Shown piece by piece: positions 8,251-57,549 of a stretch of DNA of 64,000 bases (its first letter is position 1; every line of letters begins with the position of its first letter). The DNA lies in NCBI GenBank assembly GCA_963580285.1, contig OY757014.1:20872088-20936087 (forward strand), written 5' to 3'. The stretch comes from Lucinisca nassula (lineage: Eukaryota > Mollusca > Bivalvia > Lucinida > Lucinidae). The notes under the pieces were generated by a model. The model saw only the letters and a list, made by a program, of their open reading frames with translations, searched no databases and was not told where the DNA came from. Position numbers and translations under genes: made by a program.

Positions 8251-8719
8251 GCCCAACTAAAACCAATATCATTTTGGCTTCCCAGTGACGTAAGCTACAC
8301 GACACCTATCTGCTACCACGAGTTTAACAGCCAGGACATCATTCGTGTATAAACTGAGCGCCGCGTTGAAGTTAAAGGACGAAAATAAACCGGACAGAGT
8401 GCCCATGATATTTAATTAGTAAAGCCATACACATATGGTCCCAAAACGAGACCTAAGCAAACAACAAGACCAAAATCATATGCTACATTTCTGGGTCTAC
8501 ACTGGTTTGCATCACTGTATGTCAATGTCCCGTTTACTTATAGATAGTTTAAGTCCCTATCAGCACCTTTCCCTGCCTACACCCAACCTATGCTGTACTT
8601 CCAAGTGCTTAATAGTGTTTTGCTATTGAACTCTGTGAAGTTTTGCATTGTTTTTCCATTTCTGGACGGCACATAAAGAACTCCTCAGTTATGGTTTGGT
8701 CTAGAAATGAAAACTTTCA

Positions 8720-9107
8720 TATGGCGTTTATATTTCGCAATTGATTCGATTTGTCAGTGTCTAGTAATGTATGTGACTTCAACACTCATAATAAATTGTT
8801 AAGTGCTACATGTAAACTTCTTAATCATGTTTATCGGTATCATAAACTACGCAAAGCCTTCCAAAAATCCTTATAGACGTCATTCCGATTCAATTGCTAA
8901 ATTCAATGTTCAACTAAATCTCTTCTGCAACAAGGTCTATAGGAAGCCGAATTTTATGGCGAATTAGTATATCAATTTCTATAAAAATATGATTGCAATG
9001 ACTTCAGCACCCAATTTCGTAAAATCATTATTCGATATAAAAAGATTGGGAACAACATAAATGGTATACGAGAGACTGCATGCATGGTATTTAACAAAAC
9101 GCGGTTG
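8720..9107 (+). pseudogene. Penelope-like element RT C-terminal remnant
   Basis: Nucleotide match to the C-terminal coding part of PLE1 (about 19463-19850): 'atggcgtttatatttcgcaa', 'ggtatcataaactacgcaaa', 'ctcttctgcaacaaggtcta', 'acccaatttcgtaaaatcat' and 'agactgcatgcatggta' occur in the same order. Stops and small indels disrupt the frame throughout. It is an older, heavily truncated copy of the PLE1 lineage, abutting a SINE tail at 9108. Confidence 0.85.
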
Positions 9108-17425: not shown

Positions 17426-17570
17426 AATTTTATTAATGGACACCATTAAAACATGATTATTAATTTTGACCCCAGTGGTAATACGGGTGACCTCCGAACA
17501 ATAAAGGATAGTCAATTAATAATGTATCATAATGCCATACTGTTGTTTTAAACCAAGGGGTTGTCGTTCG

Positions 17571-17642
17571 CATCACGTTAAAATATCAGTGGAAGTAATA
17601 CCCTTATACACTTCACATTGTATAGAGAAAAGTGTGGGATAA
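17571..17642. mobile_element. Family A MITE left end truncated by PLE1
   Basis: 'catcacgttaaaatatcag...tatagagaaaagtgtggg' is the left end and first hairpin of a family A element. It stops at the first codon of PLE1, so PLE1 probably inserted as a 5'-truncated copy into this MITE. Confidence 0.55.
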
Positions 17643-19916
17643 CTAGATGAGATTTTATACACCGAGGCGAATAAATTCTACGATAGTTCTCATCAGTTGT
17701 ATGATGCGGCTCTCTTAACTAGAGGCTATACTCAGCATACTCTCCGTCCTTACATTGATTCTGAAATTAATCATAAACGCCATTTCTTCAAAATATCCTT
17801 CATTAATAAGGGTATGGATTTTATAGATTTGCCCAGTATCTTCCGTGAGAGTTCGGTGCTTTCTTCCATTCCTGCTTATTTTCAAAATACTGAAACACCT
17901 ATAATTTGCTATAAATATAACAAACCTGTTAGATCTATCATTTTTAATTTCAATAAACTTGTTTCAGATCTTGATATTGATACTAATACTCCTGATTCAT
18001 GTGATTGTAAAAACTCAAAGTATTGCTATCCTGCTGCTGGTCATGTAATTACTGGCAATTTGAAAATTATTCCTGATTCTAGGATAAGGAATATAATTTC
18101 TAAAGGACCGAAATATCGGTTTCCTTCTAAAATTGATTTCAGTAAATGTAGAGATGAAATCGCTGCTTCCTTGAATGAATTCGGTAATCGATGGTGTAAG
18201 CGAGAGTATGTTGAGCATAAAGCCCTTAAGGACTGGAAACTTAGCATTTTAAAACTAGTAAATAAACGCATTTCTTTCTATTCTCAAAATACTAACTTAT
18301 TACCTCCTAAGCCCAAGACGTCTTTACGTCATCTTAAACTAGGTATTCAAGAATTTCATAAGAAGTTTGTTTTGGCCCCTGCAGACAAGGCCGCTAACAA
18401 CGCCGTCGTTGTGTGACGGCTCCACTATGTTAACACGCTTAAGCAGGAGCTTGGTGGTACTATGGCCTATGAACTTCAGCCTTTAGCTGAAGAGAGAGCT
18501 ATAGTAGATAAACATGTTTGTCTTTCAGCCACCAAGTTTGCTGTGTGTGTTAACGAAGGCCAAGACAAGCTTCCTACGCTATACTGGTTACCAAAACTTC
18601 ATAAAAAACCTTACAAAGCACGGTTTATTGCAAATTCTAGCTCTTGCACTACCACTGAACTTTCTAAATTATTAACTTCCTGTCTTACTGCTATTAAAAC
18701 GCATGTAATTAAATATTGTGATAAAGTCTTTGAAAGATCAGGAAGAAATCTGTTTTGGTCTATAAAAAATTCGAATGAGGTTTTAAATAAATTGAAATCT
18801 AGACATTTTCGTGCTTCTAGTCTGTCTACCTACGATTTTTCCACTCTTTACACTACACTTCCTCATAATCTTATAAAAGAAAAGCTTTATGATTTAATTG
18901 AATGGACTTTTCACAGAGAAGATCCTCTCTATCTTGCATGTAATGTCAGAAATGCATTTTTCACTTCTAAAGAGCATAAGAATTATACACTTTGGTCATG
19001 TCAGAAAGTGTGTGATGCCCTCACCTTTCTACTTGACAATATTTATATTAGATTCGGTACTAAGTTATTTAGACAAATTGTGGGTATTCCGATGGGTACT
19101 AATTGCGCACCTCTTGTGGCTGATCTGTTCTTGTATTGTTATGAAAGAGACTTCATTTTGTCGCTTTCCATTGATAACCAATCTGAAATTATTGAAGCTT
19201 TTAGCTCTACTTCTAGATATTTAGATGATTTATTAAATATTGATAATACCTATTTTGATGGTTTGATCAGTCAGATTTACCCCCTAGAACTTCAGTTAAA
19301 TAAAGCAAATTCTTCTGATACCGAGGCCCCGTTTTTGGATTTACATCTGTCTATTGTAGATGGATTTGTTTCGTGCAAAATTTATGATAAACGCGATGAC
19401 TTTGATTTTGAGATTGTAAATTTTCCTTTTTTGGATGGTGATGTTCCTCGTGCGCCATCCTATGGCGTTTATATTTCGCAATTAATTCGATTTGCTAGAG
19501 TGTGTAGTCATGTAACTGACTTCAACACTCGTAATAAATTATTAACGGCTAAACTCCTTAATCAGGGTTATCGGTACCATAAACTACGCAAAGCCTTTTC
19601 AAAATTTTATAGACGCCATTCTGATTTAATTTCAAAATTCAATATTGGACTTAAATCTCTTCTGCAACAAGGTCTATCGGAACCCGAATTTTATGGTGAC
19701 TTAGCATATAAATTCAGAAAAATATATAACCGCAATGACTTCAGCACCCAATTTCGTAAAATCATTCTTCGATATAAAAAGATTGGGTACAACATGGATA
19801 TTATACGACAGACTGCATGCATGGTAGTTAACCCAATCACGGTTGGCAACTTTGCTTCCCTCTTTAATTGCACGCCGGTGGGTCAGGCCTCAGATTCTAT
19901 GACGGCTCCAACGTAA
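17643..19916 (+). CDS. Penelope-like element reverse transcriptase (Naiad type), one in-frame UGA
   Basis: A single frame of about 757 codons, open except for UGA at 18414-18416 (residue 258). In order: linker with CxC motif (SCDCK, ~residue 119); PADKAANN at ~246-253; LPTLYWLPKLHKKPYKARF (~310); RT motif A YDFSTLYTT (~397); motif B GIPMGTNCAPL (~480); catalytic motif C RYLDDLL (~525); then a thumb region to the UAA at 19914. There is no GIY-YIG domain after the RT, and the start is truncated, beginning inside a MITE, so an N-terminal endonuclease would be missing. The linker CxC and permuted order fit the Naiad clade. UGA lies between NNAVVV and RLHYVNTL, with frame and similarity continuing on both sides; PLE2 has UGA at the same place. 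It may be selenocysteine, or a nonsense mutation. No initiation codon was identified. Confidence 0.9.
18414..18416 (+). other. In-frame UGA, candidate selenocysteine codon (PLE1)
   Basis: UGA separates the two halves of the PLE1 frame at AANNAVVV-UGA-RLHYVNTL. PLE2 reads ASNHIVFV-UGA-KTHYINCL at 55853-55855. In related PLEs I recall cysteine at this site. Clam Naiads are known to encode selenoproteins. I did not recognise a SECIS element by eye in 19917-20482. Confidence 0.6.
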
Positions 19917-20482
19917 AGGCTTATTGAAAATTAGAGAGATAATGTCGGTTGGTGCCTTATGCTCTGTCTCTGGTCGGGCTCATCGGAGTCTAACTGTTGG
20001 TTTTCTTTTGCTCCAGCATTTCAGTGGTTTCTTGCTGTCGAGTCCTCACCGTTGTCTCACCTCTGTGGTTCTTTGATTTTTGTGTTCACGGAGATGTTGC
20101 ACTGATGAGTTAGGAGGCCTTCATGCGGACTGAACAAATTATTTGTCTAAATCGCGACGGAAGTAAGGGCGAGGATTGTGGCCACGTAAAATCGATTTAA
20201 GCCCCCCAGTGGAAATCTTCCACTGACCGTTCCAAGGCGGCTCTTCTGTGGCGATTTATTTATGTTGTTGTTTGTTACTTACTGTGTGTATCGCTTGTGT
20301 CTTTTGGTTTTGGATGACCATATGGCCATTTTGTGGGAAAGTAACTGTCCTTATGGCCTTCCTTTGTTTAGGTTTCCATTATGGTCTGGTCGCTTAATGT
20401 TTGTATTTCTTTCCCTTTGGTGTCTTTTATGGGTGGAGTAAGTTAATTGTATCAATTCCTGATCTTTGTTTTACTTCTACTT
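19917..20482 (+). mobile_element. PLE1 3' non-coding region (N3 module, youngest type)
   Basis: From 19969 ('tctggtcg') to 'gatctttgttttacttctac' this sequence recurs at 38089-38602 (+), 21709-22202 (-) and 54283-54600 (-) with only a few changes. Older copies are at 450, 21283, 31225 and 40548. Young copies share the right end and differ at the left, as expected for 5'-truncated retroelement copies. I infer it is the 3' UTR of the PLE1 family; an unrelated element inserted next to PLE1 is possible. Confidence 0.65.
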
Positions 20483-20523
20483 TTTATACAGTACTTTCAT
20501 GGCTGTTTTGGGGTAGTCAAACC

Positions 20524-20626
20524 TATTGCGCCCGAGGCGTCGAGGACGACCGCATGCACTATTCCCCGAGGCCCCCGTAGGCCGGGGGCAATAGCGCATG
20601 GGGCCGTCCGAATGGCCGTGGGCAAT
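20524..20626. repeat. GC-rich nested palindrome
   Basis: Outer arms 'attgcgcccgagg' and 'ccgtgggcaat'; inner arms 'ctattccccgagg' and 'ccgggggcaatag'. A GC island in AT-rich surroundings. Probably a small palindromic element; 20627-21282 otherwise shows no gene. Confidence 0.55.
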
Positions 20627-21282
20627 ATATTTGATTATCTCCTGAACAGTCATGAAGAAACTGTTTTGTTACCGCACAAACATAGAAAGAAAAACAGCCG
20701 TTGAAGAAAACAAATACATTGTAGCCATACAAATAACAACACTATGAAAATGAGTTAAACAGTGTGAGGATAATGTTCGCCGAAGACGTATTCTCGAGCA
20801 CATTTTCAACTCGGTGTCATTTAATTCCGCAAATCGCTCGCCTTCTGCGTCGCCAGACCAGCCAGACGCCAAATTGTACTGTTGTTTTGGCAGAAATTAC
20901 ACGTGTTAATCTGGGAAGAATTCTGCATTACCAAAGCACAGAAGAGGCAATCCATATTCAAAGCGTGAAATAAAAGTCCCATGCAATATCGCCTGCCAAT
21001 ATATCCAGAGCTATTGCCCGGTTGTTATCACTTCTAAAGACAAATCCGTGCAGAAGCCAAAAATAGCTCATTACTTTTTATATAGTTTGGCTCCCGTCTA
21101 ACTGATGGTTTAATCCATGCAACATTTCAAATGCAAAGGGTTCTCACTGATTTAGCTTTTTAGTTAGTTTCGCGATTTGCAGAATAAAATGACACCGGAC
21201 AATAGTCGATATTGACCATTCTTGCAAAATCGTGTTATTACGTGTACATTGTCTGATAATAAGTATGTAGAATACATTTAAG

Positions 21283-21575
21283 CTCCATAGTGAAATTCTT
21301 GTCGCTGACCGTTCCAATGCGGTTCTTCTTTCGCGGTTTATTTCTGATATGGTTTGTCTTTGGGTGTATGTACCGCTTATATCTTTTTTTGTTTTGGATA
21401 GCCAATTGGCCATTTCGTGGGAAAGTAACTGTCCTTTTGGCTGTCCGCTGTTGATGTTTCCATTAGGATCTAGGTATTTTTTTCCCTTAGATGTCTCTGA
21501 TGGGAGGGGTGGGCAAATTGTGTCGATTCTTGATCACTGCCCTCACTTATATTTTTCACTAATCTTTCAGCGTTT
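21283..21575 (+). mobile_element. N3 module, old partial copy
   Basis: Matches 'gctgaccgttccaatgcgg', 'ggatagccaattggccattt', 'gtgggaaagtaactgtcc' and 'ttcttgatcactgccctc' in order. Diverged and truncated on the left. Confidence 0.65.
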
Positions 21576-21708
21576 TTGCCAGGTAAAGGAGTTAATATGC
21601 TCAGAAAAATAGTCAAGGGGAAGTCTGGTTTCTGAGAAATCTTTCACTCATAGGTGTGGAGCCAGGCCCCAAGGTTATATGTTTTTTCCATGTGCAACTA
21701 AATATTAA

Positions 21709-22202
21709 AAGTAGAAGTAAAACAAAGATCAGGAATTGATACAATTAACTTACTCCACCCATAAAAGACACCAAAGGGAAAGAAATACAAACATTAAGCG
21801 ACCAGACCATAATGGAAACCTAAACAAAGGAAGGCCATAAGGACAGTTACTTTCCCACAAAATGGCCATCCAAAATTAAAAGACACAAGTGATACACACA
21901 GTAAGTAACAAACAACACCATAAATAAATCGCCACAGAAGAGCCGCCTTGGAACGGTCAGTGGAAGATTTCCACTGGGGGGCTTTAATCGATTTTACGTG
22001 GCCACAATCTTCGCCCTTACTTCCGTCGCGATGTAGACAAATAATTTGTTCAGTCCACATGAAGGCCTCCTAACTCATCAGTGCAACATCTCCGTGAACA
22101 CAAAAATCAAAGAACCACAGAGGTGAGACAACGGTGAGGACTCGACAGCAAGAAAACACTGAAATGGTGGAGCAAACGAAAACCAACAGTTAGACTCCGA
22201 TG
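21709..22202 (-). mobile_element. N3 module, young copy
   Basis: Near-identical reverse complement of 19970-20482, from 'agtagaagtaaaacaaagat' to 'gttagactccgatg'. Inferred 5'-truncated copy of a PLE1-family retroelement. Confidence 0.8.
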
Positions 22203-22445
22203 GGCCTGATATTGTAATATTGGTCATCAGCTGATCGGATATAAATATGACAGAATGCTCAAATGTTGGTATTTTAATTATCATTGGCTCTATAAATTTC
22301 ACCCTCTTTTCCTTGCAGATTGGATAATAAACATTGTTTTCCTTATTCTGGTTTTGCAGATACAATATTTTGTTTGTTCTGCCTCAACGAGGCGCCGAAG
22401 TTTACTGAGAAACTTCGACAGTCCGAATTTGTTTACCATATGCAT

Positions 22446-31042: not shown

Positions 31043-31224
31043 TATACAGAGCAATCGTACTTTCTCATAGTGTTACTTCAAACAATTTTACTGTCATGTC
31101 AGTCGCTGTTTCATTAAGGTTTGACCAGATATCGAAATGTGCATACCAGACCCCGAGATAACAGACCTGGGATTAATCATTAGATGACTACTCATACAAA
31201 CGCAACTTTACATAAACACGGGGT

Positions 31225-31692
31225 TTCTTGCTGTCGAGTCCTCACCGTTGTTTCATCTTTGTGTTTTTTTATTATTTGTGTTGACGGAGATTTTGCACTG
31301 ATGAGTTAGGAGGCCTTCATGCGGACTGAACAAATTATTTGTCTGAATCGCGACGGAAGTAAGGACGAGGATTGTGGCCACGTAAAATAGATTTAAGCCC
31401 CCCCCCCCCAGTTGAATTCGTTTCCGCTGACCGTTCCAAGGCGGTTCTTCTGTCGAGGTTTATTTTTGTTATGGTTTGCCGTTGGGTGTTTGTGTCGCTT
31501 GTATTATTTTATTTTGGATAGCCTATTGGTCATTTTGTGGGAAAGTGACGGTTCTTTTGGCTTTCCGCTATTAATGTTTCCATTAGGTCTGTTGTTTCAT
31601 GTTTGTGTTTCTTTCCATTTGGTGTCTCTGATGGGAGCTGTGGGTTTATTGTACCGATTCCTGATCATTGCCTCCACTTATATTTTACAAGG
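31225..31692 (+). mobile_element. N3 module, old copy
   Basis: Aligns over its length to 20027-20470 with many differences: 'ttgctgtcgagtcctcaccg', 'gttaggaggccttcatgcgg', a C-run at 31400-31410, and end 'tcctgatcattgcctc'. A 94-codon frame is incidental. Confidence 0.75.
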
Positions 31693-38088: not shown

Positions 38089-38602
38089 TCTGGTCGTGCT
38101 CATCGGAGTCTAACTGTTGGTTTTCTTTTGCTCCAGCATTTCAGTGGTTTCTTGCTGTCGAGTCCTCACCGTTGTCTCACCTCTGTGGTTCTTTGATTTT
38201 TGTGTTCACGGAGATGTTGCACTGATGAGTTAGGAGGCCTTCATGCGGACTGAACAAATTATTTGTCTAAATCGCGACGGAAGTAAGGGCGAGGGTTGTG
38301 GCCACGTAAAATCGATTTAAGCCCCCCAGTGGAAATCTTCCACTGACCGTTCCAAGGCGGCTCTTCTGTGGCGATTTATTTATGTTGTTGTTTGTTACTT
38401 ACTGTGTGTATCACTTGTGTCATTTAATTTTGGATGGCCATATGACCATTTTGTGGGAAAGTAACTGTCCTTATGGCCTTCCTTTGTTTAGGTTTCCATT
38501 ATGGTCTGGTCGCTTATTGTTTGTATTTCTTTCCCTTTGGTGTCTTTTATGGGTGGAGTAAGTTAATTGTATCAATTCCTGATCTTTGTTTTACTTCTAC
38601 TT
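38089..38602 (+). mobile_element. N3 module, young copy
   Basis: Near-identical to 19969-20482, from 'tctggtcg' to 'gatctttgttttacttctac', inserted in the minisatellite. It contains no RT, as expected for a 5'-truncated copy of the PLE1 family. Confidence 0.85.
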
Positions 38603-40547: not shown

Positions 40548-40906
40548 AAAGCTAGTGAATCGATACATTTAACCCACAGCTCCCATCAGAGACACCAAAG
40601 GGAAAGAAACATAAACGTGAAACAACAGACCCCAATGGAAACACCAACAGTGGAAACCAAAAGGACAGATACTTTCCCACAAAATGGCCAAAGGCTATCC
40701 AAAAAATATAATATAAGGGACACTAACACCCAAAGACAAACCATAACAAAAACAAAAAAACCGCGACAGAAGAACCGCCTTGGAACGGTCAGCGGAAAGG
40801 AATTCCACTGGGGGGGGGGGGGCTTAAATCGATTTTACGTGGCCACAATCCTCGCCCTTAAATCTGTCGCGATTTAGACAAATAATTTGTTCAGTCCGTA
40901 TGAAGG
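40548..40906 (-). mobile_element. N3 module, old copy
   Basis: Reverse complement similar to 31225-31692, including 'gaaccgccttggaacggtca' and a G-run at 40812-40822. Its ORF is incidental. Confidence 0.7.
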
Positions 40907-41110
40907 CCTTCTAAGTCCGTGTAATGAACATCCCTCTCAACCACAGTTTATACAGATAAAATTATAGTTTACAGGGTACACATTATTATTCTTATTTCTG
41001 CCCCAAGACATAGTTGGAGGTACTCGCTAGAACCGCCTCAATAAGGCAAATTTAACGAGCACCCATAACCTATATTTGGGGTATAAATAAAAAATATCAC
41101 AAATATATTC
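40907..41110. mobile_element. Family A MITE, truncated
   Basis: 'aagtccgtgtaatgaacatc', hairpin, 'actcgctagaaccgcctcaa' and 'aacgagcacccataacctat' are family A parts. The left terminus is fused to the N3 module. Confidence 0.6.
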
Positions 41111-53880: not shown

Positions 53881-54282
53881 TTAGGTACTGTCGACAGCCA
53901 CCTTTGAGTCACATATTTTTACGTCATTGTGTTGAACAGCGCCTACTGTATTCATAATTGCTAATATCACTTTGATAGCAACATCAAAATAAATGTATTG
54001 GTACAATACATTTGCAGCATCTATGTTTGGTTTAATAACGTTTTCATAAGTAGTTAACAATGGGAAAATTAAAGTCATCTTCTTCATCGTACAGCCTAGT
54101 AGTAAGCTCCCCGTTGTCAATATAGAGATAACAATCCAAGTATGAGGAGGAGGTTGCAGTCTCTGTTGTTTCCATAATTTCAAGTTCACGTGGATAGATG
54201 TATTCTAAGTACTCTGCGAATTCTTTTAGAGACCAAAAATCATCAATATATCTGTAGGTGAAATTGAATTGTGGTGCAAAGT

Positions 54283-54600
54283 AGAAGTAAAACAAAGATC
54301 AGGAATTGATACAATTAACTTACTCCATCCATAAAAGACACCAAAGGGAAAGGAATACAAACATTAAGCGACCAGACCATAATGGAAACCTAAACAAAGG
54401 AAGGCCATATGGACAGTTACTTTCCCACAAAATGGCCATATGGCCATCCAAAATTAAAAGACACAAGTGATACACACAGTAAGTAACAAACAACAACATA
54501 AAAAATCGCCACAGAAGAGCCGCCTTGGAACGGTCAGTGGAAGATTTCCACTGGGGGGCTTAAATCGATTTTACGTGGCCACAATCCTCGCCCTTACTTC
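54283..54600 (-). mobile_element. N3 module inserted in PLE2
   Basis: Near-identical to the 3' part of 19969-20482, truncated on the left at 'ggaagtaagggcgaggattg'. It separates RT motifs B and C of PLE2 and lies in the same orientation, so PLE1-type elements moved after PLE2 was in place. A short duplication 'gtttcttgccggttttgag' lies next to the join. Confidence 0.85.
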
Positions 54601-55089
54601 CGTTTCTTGCCGGTTTTGAGAGGCGTTTCTTGGCGTTTCTTGCCGGTTTTGAGAAGACCTTGCACAAACTCCGCCTCATACGAGTACAAAAACAAGCCGA
54701 CAAGCAACGATGCACAATTAGTACCCATTGGTATGCCAATTGTTTGCTGAAATATTAGGCCACTGAACTCCACGAAAATAGTGTCAATTAGATATTCCAG
54801 CATCTTTATGACATCTGCATCAGTGTACATTTGTGGTGCATCAGAGTAATCTCGAACGAAGTATGTGACTTTGTAGCCAAGGACAATATACTGGTAGCGA
54901 CGGTAACCATTCTTGTGGAAGAAACATTGATTTATGATTTCCTTGAGTTTAGATTTAAATTTATCATGAGTAATAGTTGTGTAGAGAGTTGAGAAATCGA
55001 AATATTTATGCTGTTAACTGAGAGAAAAGACTGTGTGTGAAGATGTTACAGAAGCTCTTTGGAGTTTTTCAAGATCCATAAGTATCTTA

Positions 55090-55545
55090 GCGGTGTTTTT
55101 GTTTGCCGGGTCTTGTCCATCATCCGTTTCGGTTTCAGAACTCTGGGGTTTAGACACACTGATGAAGCTTAGGAATCCAGTACAACTTTGGTTGGCCCTT
55201 TTTGTTATGTTTTAAATTTTGCAAGTCTCGCTACTTTGGACACCTCCTTCCTGATGCCCGGGACATCTGTGGAGTATGGGCCATGTTTGCTGATGTTGGC
55301 TCGGTGGGGGACGCCTATAAGTTCGCGGATGGGCGTCTCTTGCCTGATGCCTCCAGTTGACCTGTCGCATGCGCTACGTCGGTCGAGGTTTGCTCTTAAG
55401 GGGGTGTTCTGTGTTTGCCGGGTCTTGTCCATCATCCGTTTCGGTTTCAGAACTTTGAGGTTTAGACACACTGATGAAGATTAAATGTCAGAAAGGCCTC
55501 TGTGTCACTAAATTTGGTATAGTTACGCCTTAATCACACCACTCC
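55090..55545 (+). mobile_element. Element M, partial dimer (312-bp period), inserted in PLE2
   Basis: 'gtttgccgggtcttgtccat' at 55101 recurs at 55413. The first repeat stops inside the hammerhead-like motif, right after CTGATGAAG, and is joined to a 28-bp copy of PLE2 RT sequence ('aagcttaggaatccagtaca', original at 55661). The body 'ctacgtcggtcgaggtttgc' matches 33254-33490 and 41764-42018. Confidence 0.75.
55461..55512 (+). ncRNA. Candidate non-canonical hammerhead
   Basis: TTTAGACACA-CTGATGA, weak stem II, GAAA-GGCC-TC, TGTGTCACTAAA. Stem I pairs 10 of 10 with a CA bulge. A:A at the 10.1/11.1 position and a loopless stem III are unusual; a dimeric fold would be needed. Confidence 0.4.
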
Positions 55546-55852
55546 TGGCATATGGAGTGTTACAATATTTCTGAAGGCCATCTTTAACTGCAGTAAGGAT
55601 TCGTGTTAGGATCTGTGAAGAGGCTTGGTTAAGCACTTAGCACTTGTAGGGATTCTTGTGAAGCTTAGGAATCCAGTACAACTTTGGAAGTTCCATATCT
55701 TCCTCTGGGAGGGAAATTCCAAACGAAAGCATCACCGATGTGTGGTTTCGGAGAATTTCATCTTTGGACAAAGAAGAAAGATTATATTTTGGGTTGCCTG
55801 TCACAGTGCTCAAACCAAGCTCTTCATTTAAGCAGTTTATATAGTGTGTTTT

Positions 55853-55855
55853 TCA
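55853..55855 (-). other. In-frame UGA, candidate selenocysteine codon (PLE2)
   Basis: Minus strand ASNHIVFV-UGA-KTHYINCLNEELG, with the frame open for about 60 codons downstream, through LPKLYWIPKLHKNPYK. Same aligned site as UGA at 18414-18416 in PLE1. Confidence 0.6.
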
Positions 55856-57549
55856 AACAAACACAATGTGGTTTGATGCCTTGTCAGCTGGAACAACGAC
55901 ACACTTCTGATGGATTTCAGCTAACTCAGCAGCAACATCTGGATCATCAAACACCGAATAATGTTGGCGAGACATGGTTCTGCTGAGTACTGTTATACGT
56001 CTGTTTACCGAGGCGATTACTGATTTAACCCATTCGGAGAGGGTGTCAACCTCCGAATCCTCTTTCCTAGCCCATTTGGAATTCTGTTTACAAGTAAACG
56101 ATTTTGGTCCCATGTATTTGGGGCCTTTTGAACAAATGTCTCGAAGTTTGTCATTTCTAAAATATTGAGGTCTCCTGTAATGATGTGACCTGCTGGATGG
56201 TACATGGACATTCGGAGGGGCTTTGGGCAATGGTCTCGGCATCTTGACCTTGCAGCACGGTTTTATTATTGAATATTTTGGGTGCAATCGGAGTAGAATA
56301 TATGCAGAAAATAATTGGTGGGCTCTTGTTTTTGAAATAAGCTGGTACGGTTGAAGTCACTGTTTTATTGTTAAGAATATTGCCAATGTTAACGGCGTCA
56401 AGACCTTTATTTTTGAATTGAAGCTTCAGAAAGTCACGAGGTAGAGTCTCTTCTGGGGAAACTGCTTGTACTGGCTTGTACAACCGAAACATAGCCACAT
56501 CCGTCATAATAGCAATATGCCTATATTCAGGAGCATTTGGTTCGAACGTGTTCACATCCAAAGCTTTTTTTTTATGCAAAGAGCGAGGTTTAGTAACCGG
56601 CAGTGGATACAGCTTGGTACGAATATGATGAAGTCCTAAAGGTTGCTGGACGTGTGGAAGGAGATTTACGAATGTCACATCAGCATGAAAATTCGGACGG
56701 TTATAGTGCCGATGTCCATGATTTCTCCTACGTCGTTGAGAGCTGCCAAAGAGCCTTATCACATTGAGCGAGCTGCATCCCGGGCTGGTACGATTTCCTA
56801 CAGAGTCTATCTTTTCATTGCAACCGTATAGTGTTGCAGTGCTTAATTCTCTTATCCAGAACTCCTCACGTTTTAAATGAAGTGGTGTGCTCAAGCCGGG
56901 ATTATTAGTGGGGTGGTATATATTTGTTTCAATATTCTTACCCTGAAGGACAAACTAGAATAATCTGGTAGATTGAAATGATGGTATGACAACTGATTGC
57001 CTCCATTATTCACTTCATATCTGTAATCAGACATTCTAGTACGCAGTTGACCTTTTGTCTCACCTACGTTTATCAGTCCGCAAAGTGAACACTCCACTCC
57101 ATAGACAACATTTGAGGACTTACAGTTGAGATCGTCCCAGCTCCGTGTGTGGTATATATTATTGGTGAGTCCACTAGTAAACTGTGTATCCGTGTTCAAA
57201 ATTTAACAAGTTTTACACTTTTTTGAATTGCATGATGTTATATTGCAATGTGGCTCACTGTCATCAAATTTCAAAATATCACGTTATTTAATTGTACAGA
57301 TTTTGATCTGTATGTAAACATCACCATCACGGTACCAAATGTAACAGTGTTCATTTCATATCGTGAATGTTATTTCTCAGTATTTATCGCCCACCCCCGT
57401 TGTGTTATTTACATTGCTAGGAACTGTCATGTCCACCTTGTAATAAACCACTGTTAAATAACTATATGTTTTTGGCATATTTTCATACCATTGTCTTAAA
57501 CAGTACGCTAATCCTATTTGCTCGTATCACTTGGATTATTTTATCAAAA

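Follow-up and report, generated by a model that had tools for sequence, protein, structure and literature searches.

Naiads are Penelope-like elements (PLEs) in which a GIY-YIG endonuclease lies upstream of the reverse transcriptase (RT) in the same reading frame, with a CxC motif between the two, and in which the RT is telomerase-like. Other features are a pseudo-LTR or tandem arrangement and an insertion-in-fingers domain. Craig, Yushenova, Rodriguez and Arkhipova (2021, Mol Biol Evol) reportedly found that clam and spider Naiads are selenoprotein genes, with several selenocysteine (Sec) residues. PLE1, the element described here, would share with these reported Naiads an N-terminal endonuclease, a CxC linker, an RT and several UGAs read as Sec. 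It most likely belongs to the same, reportedly known, phenomenon, as an earlier note on this DNA had supposed.

According to the available excerpts of two papers, eukaryotic SECIS elements have the core UGAN/KGAW (PMC7409322) and carry an AAR motif in a terminal loop or bulge (PMC2746813). All cellular SECIS elements are stated to be located in the 3´ UTR in the excerpt of a third (PMC8310308), which also mentions, citing Mix et al. (2007), a SECIS within the coding sequence of fowlpox virus GPx4. One predicted ciliate SECIS in a coding region, on the reverse strand of a gene without Sec, is noted in the excerpt of PMC7409322.

As far as these excerpts describe them, Form 1 and Form 2 SECIS elements share with a hairpin at the end of the PLE1 reading frame two helices, the core UGAN/KGAW and an apical AAR (PMC2746813; PMC7409322). 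Whereas cellular SECIS elements are placed in the 3´ UTR in the excerpted text (PMC8310308), that of PLE1 takes in the final codons together with the stop codon. It resembles the fowlpox GPx4 SECIS, as excerpted (PMC8310308), in overlapping protein-coding sequence, but the latter is viral and described as inside the coding sequence, whereas the PLE1 hairpin is part of a retroelement in an animal and extends over the terminator. We consider it very probable, judging from sequence comparisons, that PLE1 is a copy of a Naiad family whose long open reading frame (ORF) carries four UGAs that the host reads as Sec.

Results

PLE1 and its copies in the genome

The window, i.e. the whole stretch of 64,000 nucleotides of Lucinisca nassula DNA that was analysed, contains PLE1 at positions 17659-20488 of the plus strand. 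It is a 5´-truncated copy of a Naiad-type PLE and, along this length, 99.6% identical to L002, a full-length copy. An open frame of 757 codons (17643-19916, plus strand) comprises the CxC linker and the RT. Its sole internal stop is the TGA at 18414-18416 (plus strand), and coding similarity is present on either side of it, both as described in the earlier note. The first few codons of the frame precede the start of element homology. Homology to L002 starts at 17659, which means that the 5´ end is cut, and 58 other scored copies match from query residue 4 onward. The truncation (at ~17659) had been missed, as had three upstream in-frame TGAs of full-length copies.

In a search of the animal's own genome (2.93 Gb, 696 contigs), 59 matches were scored of 139818 first-look candidates. 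Each of the 59, among them the window copy, has precisely one stop within the aligned part, and this is always TGA. The 58 other copies are nearly identical to one another, with the frame otherwise open. The UGA is present in the other PLE1 copies, and its absence from them, which had been named as grounds for refutation, was not observed.

The PLE1 frame continues upstream in full-length copies. The ORF of L002 has 1074 codons and encodes a GIY-YIG-like region (LIYLIT..QYVGQT), then the CxC linker (DSCDCKN), then the RT. The window UGA corresponds to residue 575 of this protein. Three further in-frame stops, at residues 133, 144 and 294, are all TGA, and internal TAA or TAG codons are absent. 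We counted these sites over 28 loci including the window copy, with several alignments per locus and alignments of less than ~600 bases dropped. TGA was found at residue 133 in 18/18, at 144 in 18/18, at 294 in 25/25 and at 575 in 32/32 covering alignments, and the terminator was TAA in 32/32 alignments (28 loci). Older copies in L009, L014 and L018 carry additional stops, and some copies have indels.

The endonuclease motif LIYLIT..QYVGQT lies in the same frame as the RT and aligns with full-length relatives, one of which, P0144, has a precomputed PF01541 assignment. The L002 ORF itself gave no Pfam match at E<=1. The two cysteines of the CxC linker are found in 25/34 (residue 437) and 31/34 (residue 439) aligned relatives. 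The 15 best PDB fold matches were all telomerase RTs, with E values down to 6.8e-11, but the TM-scores were low and the rmsd over the long alignments was large; the AlphaFold2 model used for this search had a mean pLDDT of 78.4 and a pTM of 0.63. The pseudo-LTR or tandem arrangement is seen in one copy, where window positions 20319-20510 match L002 1-184 at 94%; the 3´-end stretch of the element recurs upstream of the ORF in L002.

PLE2 and the Cys-type family

The window contains a second element, PLE2 (54050-57340, minus strand), a decayed copy of a Cys-type Naiad family that is distributed over several frames. A TGA exists at the codon aligned with that of PLE1 (55855-55853, minus strand). 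The earlier note took it as a second independent instance and argued that two diverged lineages would hardly acquire the same nonsense codon by chance. This argument fails because the PLE2 TGA reads most simply as a one-base decay of a Cys codon. PLE2 is fragmented and has four in-frame stops (three TAA, one TGA). Its family is nearest to P0123, and TGC occupies the aligned codon in 9/9 nearest relatives examined (L035-L043), one of which, L038, aligns to P0123 residues 136-995 with zero stops. The extra TAA stops, the TGC relatives and the stop-free L038 rule out PLE2 as independent evidence of recoding.

PLE2 itself has Cys at the residues equivalent to 133 and 144. In the own-genome search for the PLE2 family, 150 candidates were scored, and the stop-bearing ones show TGA, TAA and TAG. 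The Cys-type Naiads L035-L043 have the same overall protein as PLE1, but with Cys at the equivalent of residue 575 and no need for a UGA. By coordinates, none of these nine loci is among the 93 genome-wide SECIS_1 matches listed (see below). A hairpin in L043 was rejected as belonging to another, nested element.

Residues at the UGA sites in relatives

The best 120 of 890 proteins found were compared with PLE1, and 43 of these cover residue 575. The earlier note had looked to this column for Cys, as against Trp, Arg or random residues. Cys is indeed found in 30 of the 43; the others have Trp (11), Arg (1) and a misaligned Asn (1). Among the 77 listed relatives that do not cover the site, 21 begin two codons behind it. 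P0001, one of the Trp-bearing proteins, shares 98% identity with P0023 and P0024, and these two begin right behind codon 575. Because such close relatives start directly behind the same codon, the codon in the P0001 family is best explained as a TGA that was called either as Trp (code 4) or as a stop.

A second set of 34 relatives included full-length ones, a few rows being poorly alignable around 133 and 144. Residue 133 is Cys in 14/18 rows (1 Trp, 3 others) and residue 144 likewise in 14/18 (2 Trp, 2 others). At residue 575, there are 22 Cys, 7 Trp, 3 Asp and 1 gap among 33 rows, the Asp rows being the most distant PLEs. Residue 294 is different, with Cys in 0/28 (10 Asp, 7 Asn, the rest mixed); P0022 has a Cys one column after it. 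The combination expected of a selenoprotein, an in-frame UGA with flanking coding similarity and Cys in homologues, is found at 133, 144 and 575 and is lacking at 294. By these alignments, three of the UGAs replace Cys and the UGA at 294 does not.

P0129 has Trp at 133, 144 and 575 and also at the first Cys of the CxC motif. Trp, probably representing UGA, is found at this CxC position in P0001, P0003, P0007, P0008, P0096 and P0129, and P0096 has it at one further Cys column too. Other lineages thus seem to have Sec at different combinations of sites.

Some of the database relatives are labelled Pinctada imbricata or stand within records of lucinid-clam and Bathymodiolus symbionts. An alignment search of genome contigs found five loci in bacterial records, which presumably come from host DNA. 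Three of them (L029, L030 and L032) translate Cys at 575, and L030 has Cys also at 133 and 144. Searches of a plasmid collection and of viral contigs gave nothing useful, and neither did genome contigs with a single protein.

A SECIS-like hairpin across the end of the ORF

A SECIS-like hairpin (19889-19968, plus strand) lies over the end of the PLE1 ORF. The 5´ side of the SECIS core, AUGA (19899-19902, plus strand), is within the C-terminal Met and Thr codons. The TAA stop together with the next base (19914-19917, plus strand) provides the apical AAA motif. The 3´ side of the core (19957-19960, plus strand) is UUAU in the window as opposed to UGAU in other copies. The 5´ arm is the coding sequence AUGACGGCUCCAACG, translated as M-T-A-P-T, and the 3´ arm, GUUGGUGCC-UGAU, is located in the 3´ UTR. 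Rather than residing in the 3´ UTR, the element spans the stop codon, with only its 3´ arm beyond it. In its long variant, an extra hairpin is placed above the AAA, as in Form 2, and a 12-base deletion gives the short variant. The two length variants (L002 and L004), 12 bases apart above the AAA, coexist among nearly identical copies.

A motif search found 32 such hairpins in 27 loci (L002-L028), with the 3´ core UGAU in 31 and AGAU in one older copy. The SECIS hallmarks, i.e. the core UGAN/KGAW, the AAR motif and two helices, are present with the core intact in 31/32, and sister subfamilies exceed the Rfam cut-off. The Rfam SECIS_1 scores at the ORF end are 18.8 bits for L004, the 5´ end of which was cut by the searched stretch, and 17.2 bits for the window, neither of which reaches the gathering score of 35. 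Compared with shuffled sequences, the hairpin has no exceptional folding energy (z -1.50, 0.03 and -0.90). Rfam at gathering cut-offs found nothing in the whole window, and at E<=10 found no SECIS in 17500-21600; the element is visible only in short stretches around the ORF end. A SECIS lying entirely within the 3´ UTR was rejected, as two scans of the L002 3´ UTR gave results no better than shuffles; both scans began behind the stop codon and were blind to a stop-spanning hairpin. The SECIS for which the earlier note proposed a search does exist, but the interval it suggested (19917-20482) covers just the 3´ portion of this hairpin. The copy in the window is dead, being both 5´-truncated and mutated in the SECIS core.

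Strong SECIS elements in sister subfamilies

A genome-wide search with SECIS_1 listed 93 matches at E<=10, of which 18 were over the curated cut-off and the best had 46.1 bits (E 3.0e-5). With 150 scored of 134727 first-look candidates, this is no census and says little on the SECIS elements of the host. We examined 48 of the top 53 rows listed, including 13 of the 18 over the cut-off; the five omitted have scores equal to examined ones. The stop-spanning form with TAA was found in 48/48, and in each the frame across the hairpin ends with Met, a codon beginning with A, three more codons and TAA. Some of these copies have decayed and show a stop a little way upstream. A translated search recognised same-strand Naiad coding sequence in 39/48. 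Most copies with a strong SECIS are older, fragmentary ones whose UGA sites are unreadable; among the older subfamily copies examined for these sites, none covers them except for one poor stretch in L046. It is only in the PLE1 family that UGAs and hairpin have been observed together.

Between subfamilies, the helix shows matched, compensatory changes. In 42 distinct sequences, for example, one pair is C-G 14 times, U-A 21 times and U-G 6 times, and is unpaired once. Across 13 pairs, 88.5% of cells are paired, a value inflated by the sampling, as 33 of the 42 sequences were found via the covariance model and all passed the motif filter. Changes on both sides were seen in 24 cells, which was reached by 0/500 shuffles, and in 7 pairs, reached by 1/500; structures slid along the alignment were at most 49.1% paired. 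Nine of the 42 sequences are independent of the covariance model, and one of them, L021, has a C-G to U-A change. One of the 13 pairs is a U-U mismatch in most copies and is unpaired in 33/42. Third codon positions within the helix are near-fixed (G in 42/42, A in 40/42), and those at the mismatch and outside the helix vary (26/13/3 and 28/6/4/4, respectively).

Discussion

Insertion of Sec is by far the best reading of the PLE1 UGAs. The proposal in the earlier note that the UGA is recoded finds strong support for PLE1, on evidence other than that originally offered, and does not extend to PLE2. It is strongly supported because TGA is found in every copy that covers the site and the internal stops of L002 are all TGA, because most relatives have Cys at three of the four sites, and because a SECIS-like hairpin is present at the ORF end in a genome with tRNA-Sec genes. 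The latter gave 31 matches, the best with 80.0 and 77.4 bits, which points to a host equipped with Sec machinery.

Ordinary readthrough of the stops by a near-cognate tRNA would also yield a long protein. All four UGAs (L002 codons 133, 144, 294 and 575) are followed by C, and UGA-C is a leaky stop context known for plain readthrough; in addition, the SECIS of PLE1 itself scores low (18.8 bits against 35). We nevertheless regard readthrough as very unlikely, given that three of the four UGAs stand in columns where relatives have Cys, that the SECIS at the end of the ORF is a strong one in sister subfamilies and that tRNA-Sec genes are present. Moreover, four successive leaky stops would give very little full-length protein.

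Chance nonsense mutation in dead copies, with no recoding at all, is scarcely plausible. PLE2 shows exactly such decay, and the PLE1 copy in the window is itself truncated with a broken SECIS core. However, every covering alignment has TGA at the same four places, L002 has an ORF without TAA or TAG inside, the 58 near-identical copies have a frame that is open apart from one TGA, and relatives begin directly after codon 575. We conclude that the UGA at 18414-18416 is real, in frame and no chance nonsense mutation.

That UGA is read as Trp by a changed code of the organism or the element, which would fit the Trp in 11 of the 43 listed relatives covering residue 575, is close to untenable, because proteins 98% identical to P0001 start behind the codon and the Trp is most simply due to gene calling with code 4, because the extra Trp of the 12 Trp-type proteins falls at Cys/Sec columns except for four cases in three proteins, and because the PLE2-type family of the same genome has TGC at this position and its copies decay via TGA, TAA and TAG alike.

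Under Sec insertion, the hairpin would bind a SECIS-binding protein and recruit eEFSec with Sec-tRNA, and the host factors so recruited could decode the four UGAs as Sec. The incorporated residues may serve in catalysis or metal binding. TAA may have been kept as the terminator for two reasons: a UGA at this place would be recoded, and UAA with the next base gives the apical AAA. With a SECIS present, a new UGA would amount to a missense rather than a nonsense mutation, which fits the UGA at 294, a column of Asp and Asn in relatives. A caution is that translation as far as the terminator would require ribosomes to unfold the hairpin. We lean, somewhat, towards the view that this large retroelement lineage carries its SECIS across its own stop, with the last codons as 5´ arm and the AAA made of UAA and one more base. 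The conserved C-terminal peptide (Met, Thr/Met, Ala/Val, Pro, Thr/Ala) would then be largely a by-product of RNA structure, and UGA an ordinary missense codon, even at a position that is not Cys.

The stop-spanning SECIS is possibly new, because the excerpt of PMC8310308 puts cellular SECIS elements in the 3´ UTR and our literature searches show no paper of this kind; this is judged without comparison to Craig et al. 2021. Among the titles and abstract beginnings returned by these searches, none has a retroelement SECIS as its subject and none is about a cellular SECIS that spans a stop codon. If our reading is true, the rule given in the excerpt, that all cellular SECIS elements are in the 3´ UTR (PMC8310308), has an exception in a SECIS that takes in the stop. 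It would also follow that a high-copy retroelement depends on the selenium machinery of its host at four residues, three of which are conserved Cys positions in the endonuclease region and the RT. With Sec- and Cys-type Naiads in one genome and matched changes in the hairpin, the gain of UGA and SECIS would become directly followable.

Some further observations concern the genome and the surroundings of PLE1. Contigs C3, C6 and C7 carry SECIS sets of equal score (46.1 and 42.3 bits on each of them, 41.2 bits on two), and may be homologous or homeologous chromosomes that stand side by side in the assembly. Weaker tRNA-Sec-like clusters (41-49 bits) were seen on C1 (~147.7 Mb), C9 (~84.0-84.4 Mb) and C15. 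The window is rich in remains of the PLE1-type element family, with fragments of the 3´ UTR or pseudo-LTR (~73-97% identity) at 442-808, 21267-21535, 21702-22209, 31222-31670, 38089-38125 and 40557-40917. Another decayed piece of a related RT, of ~61% identity and with several stops, is located at 8717-9098.
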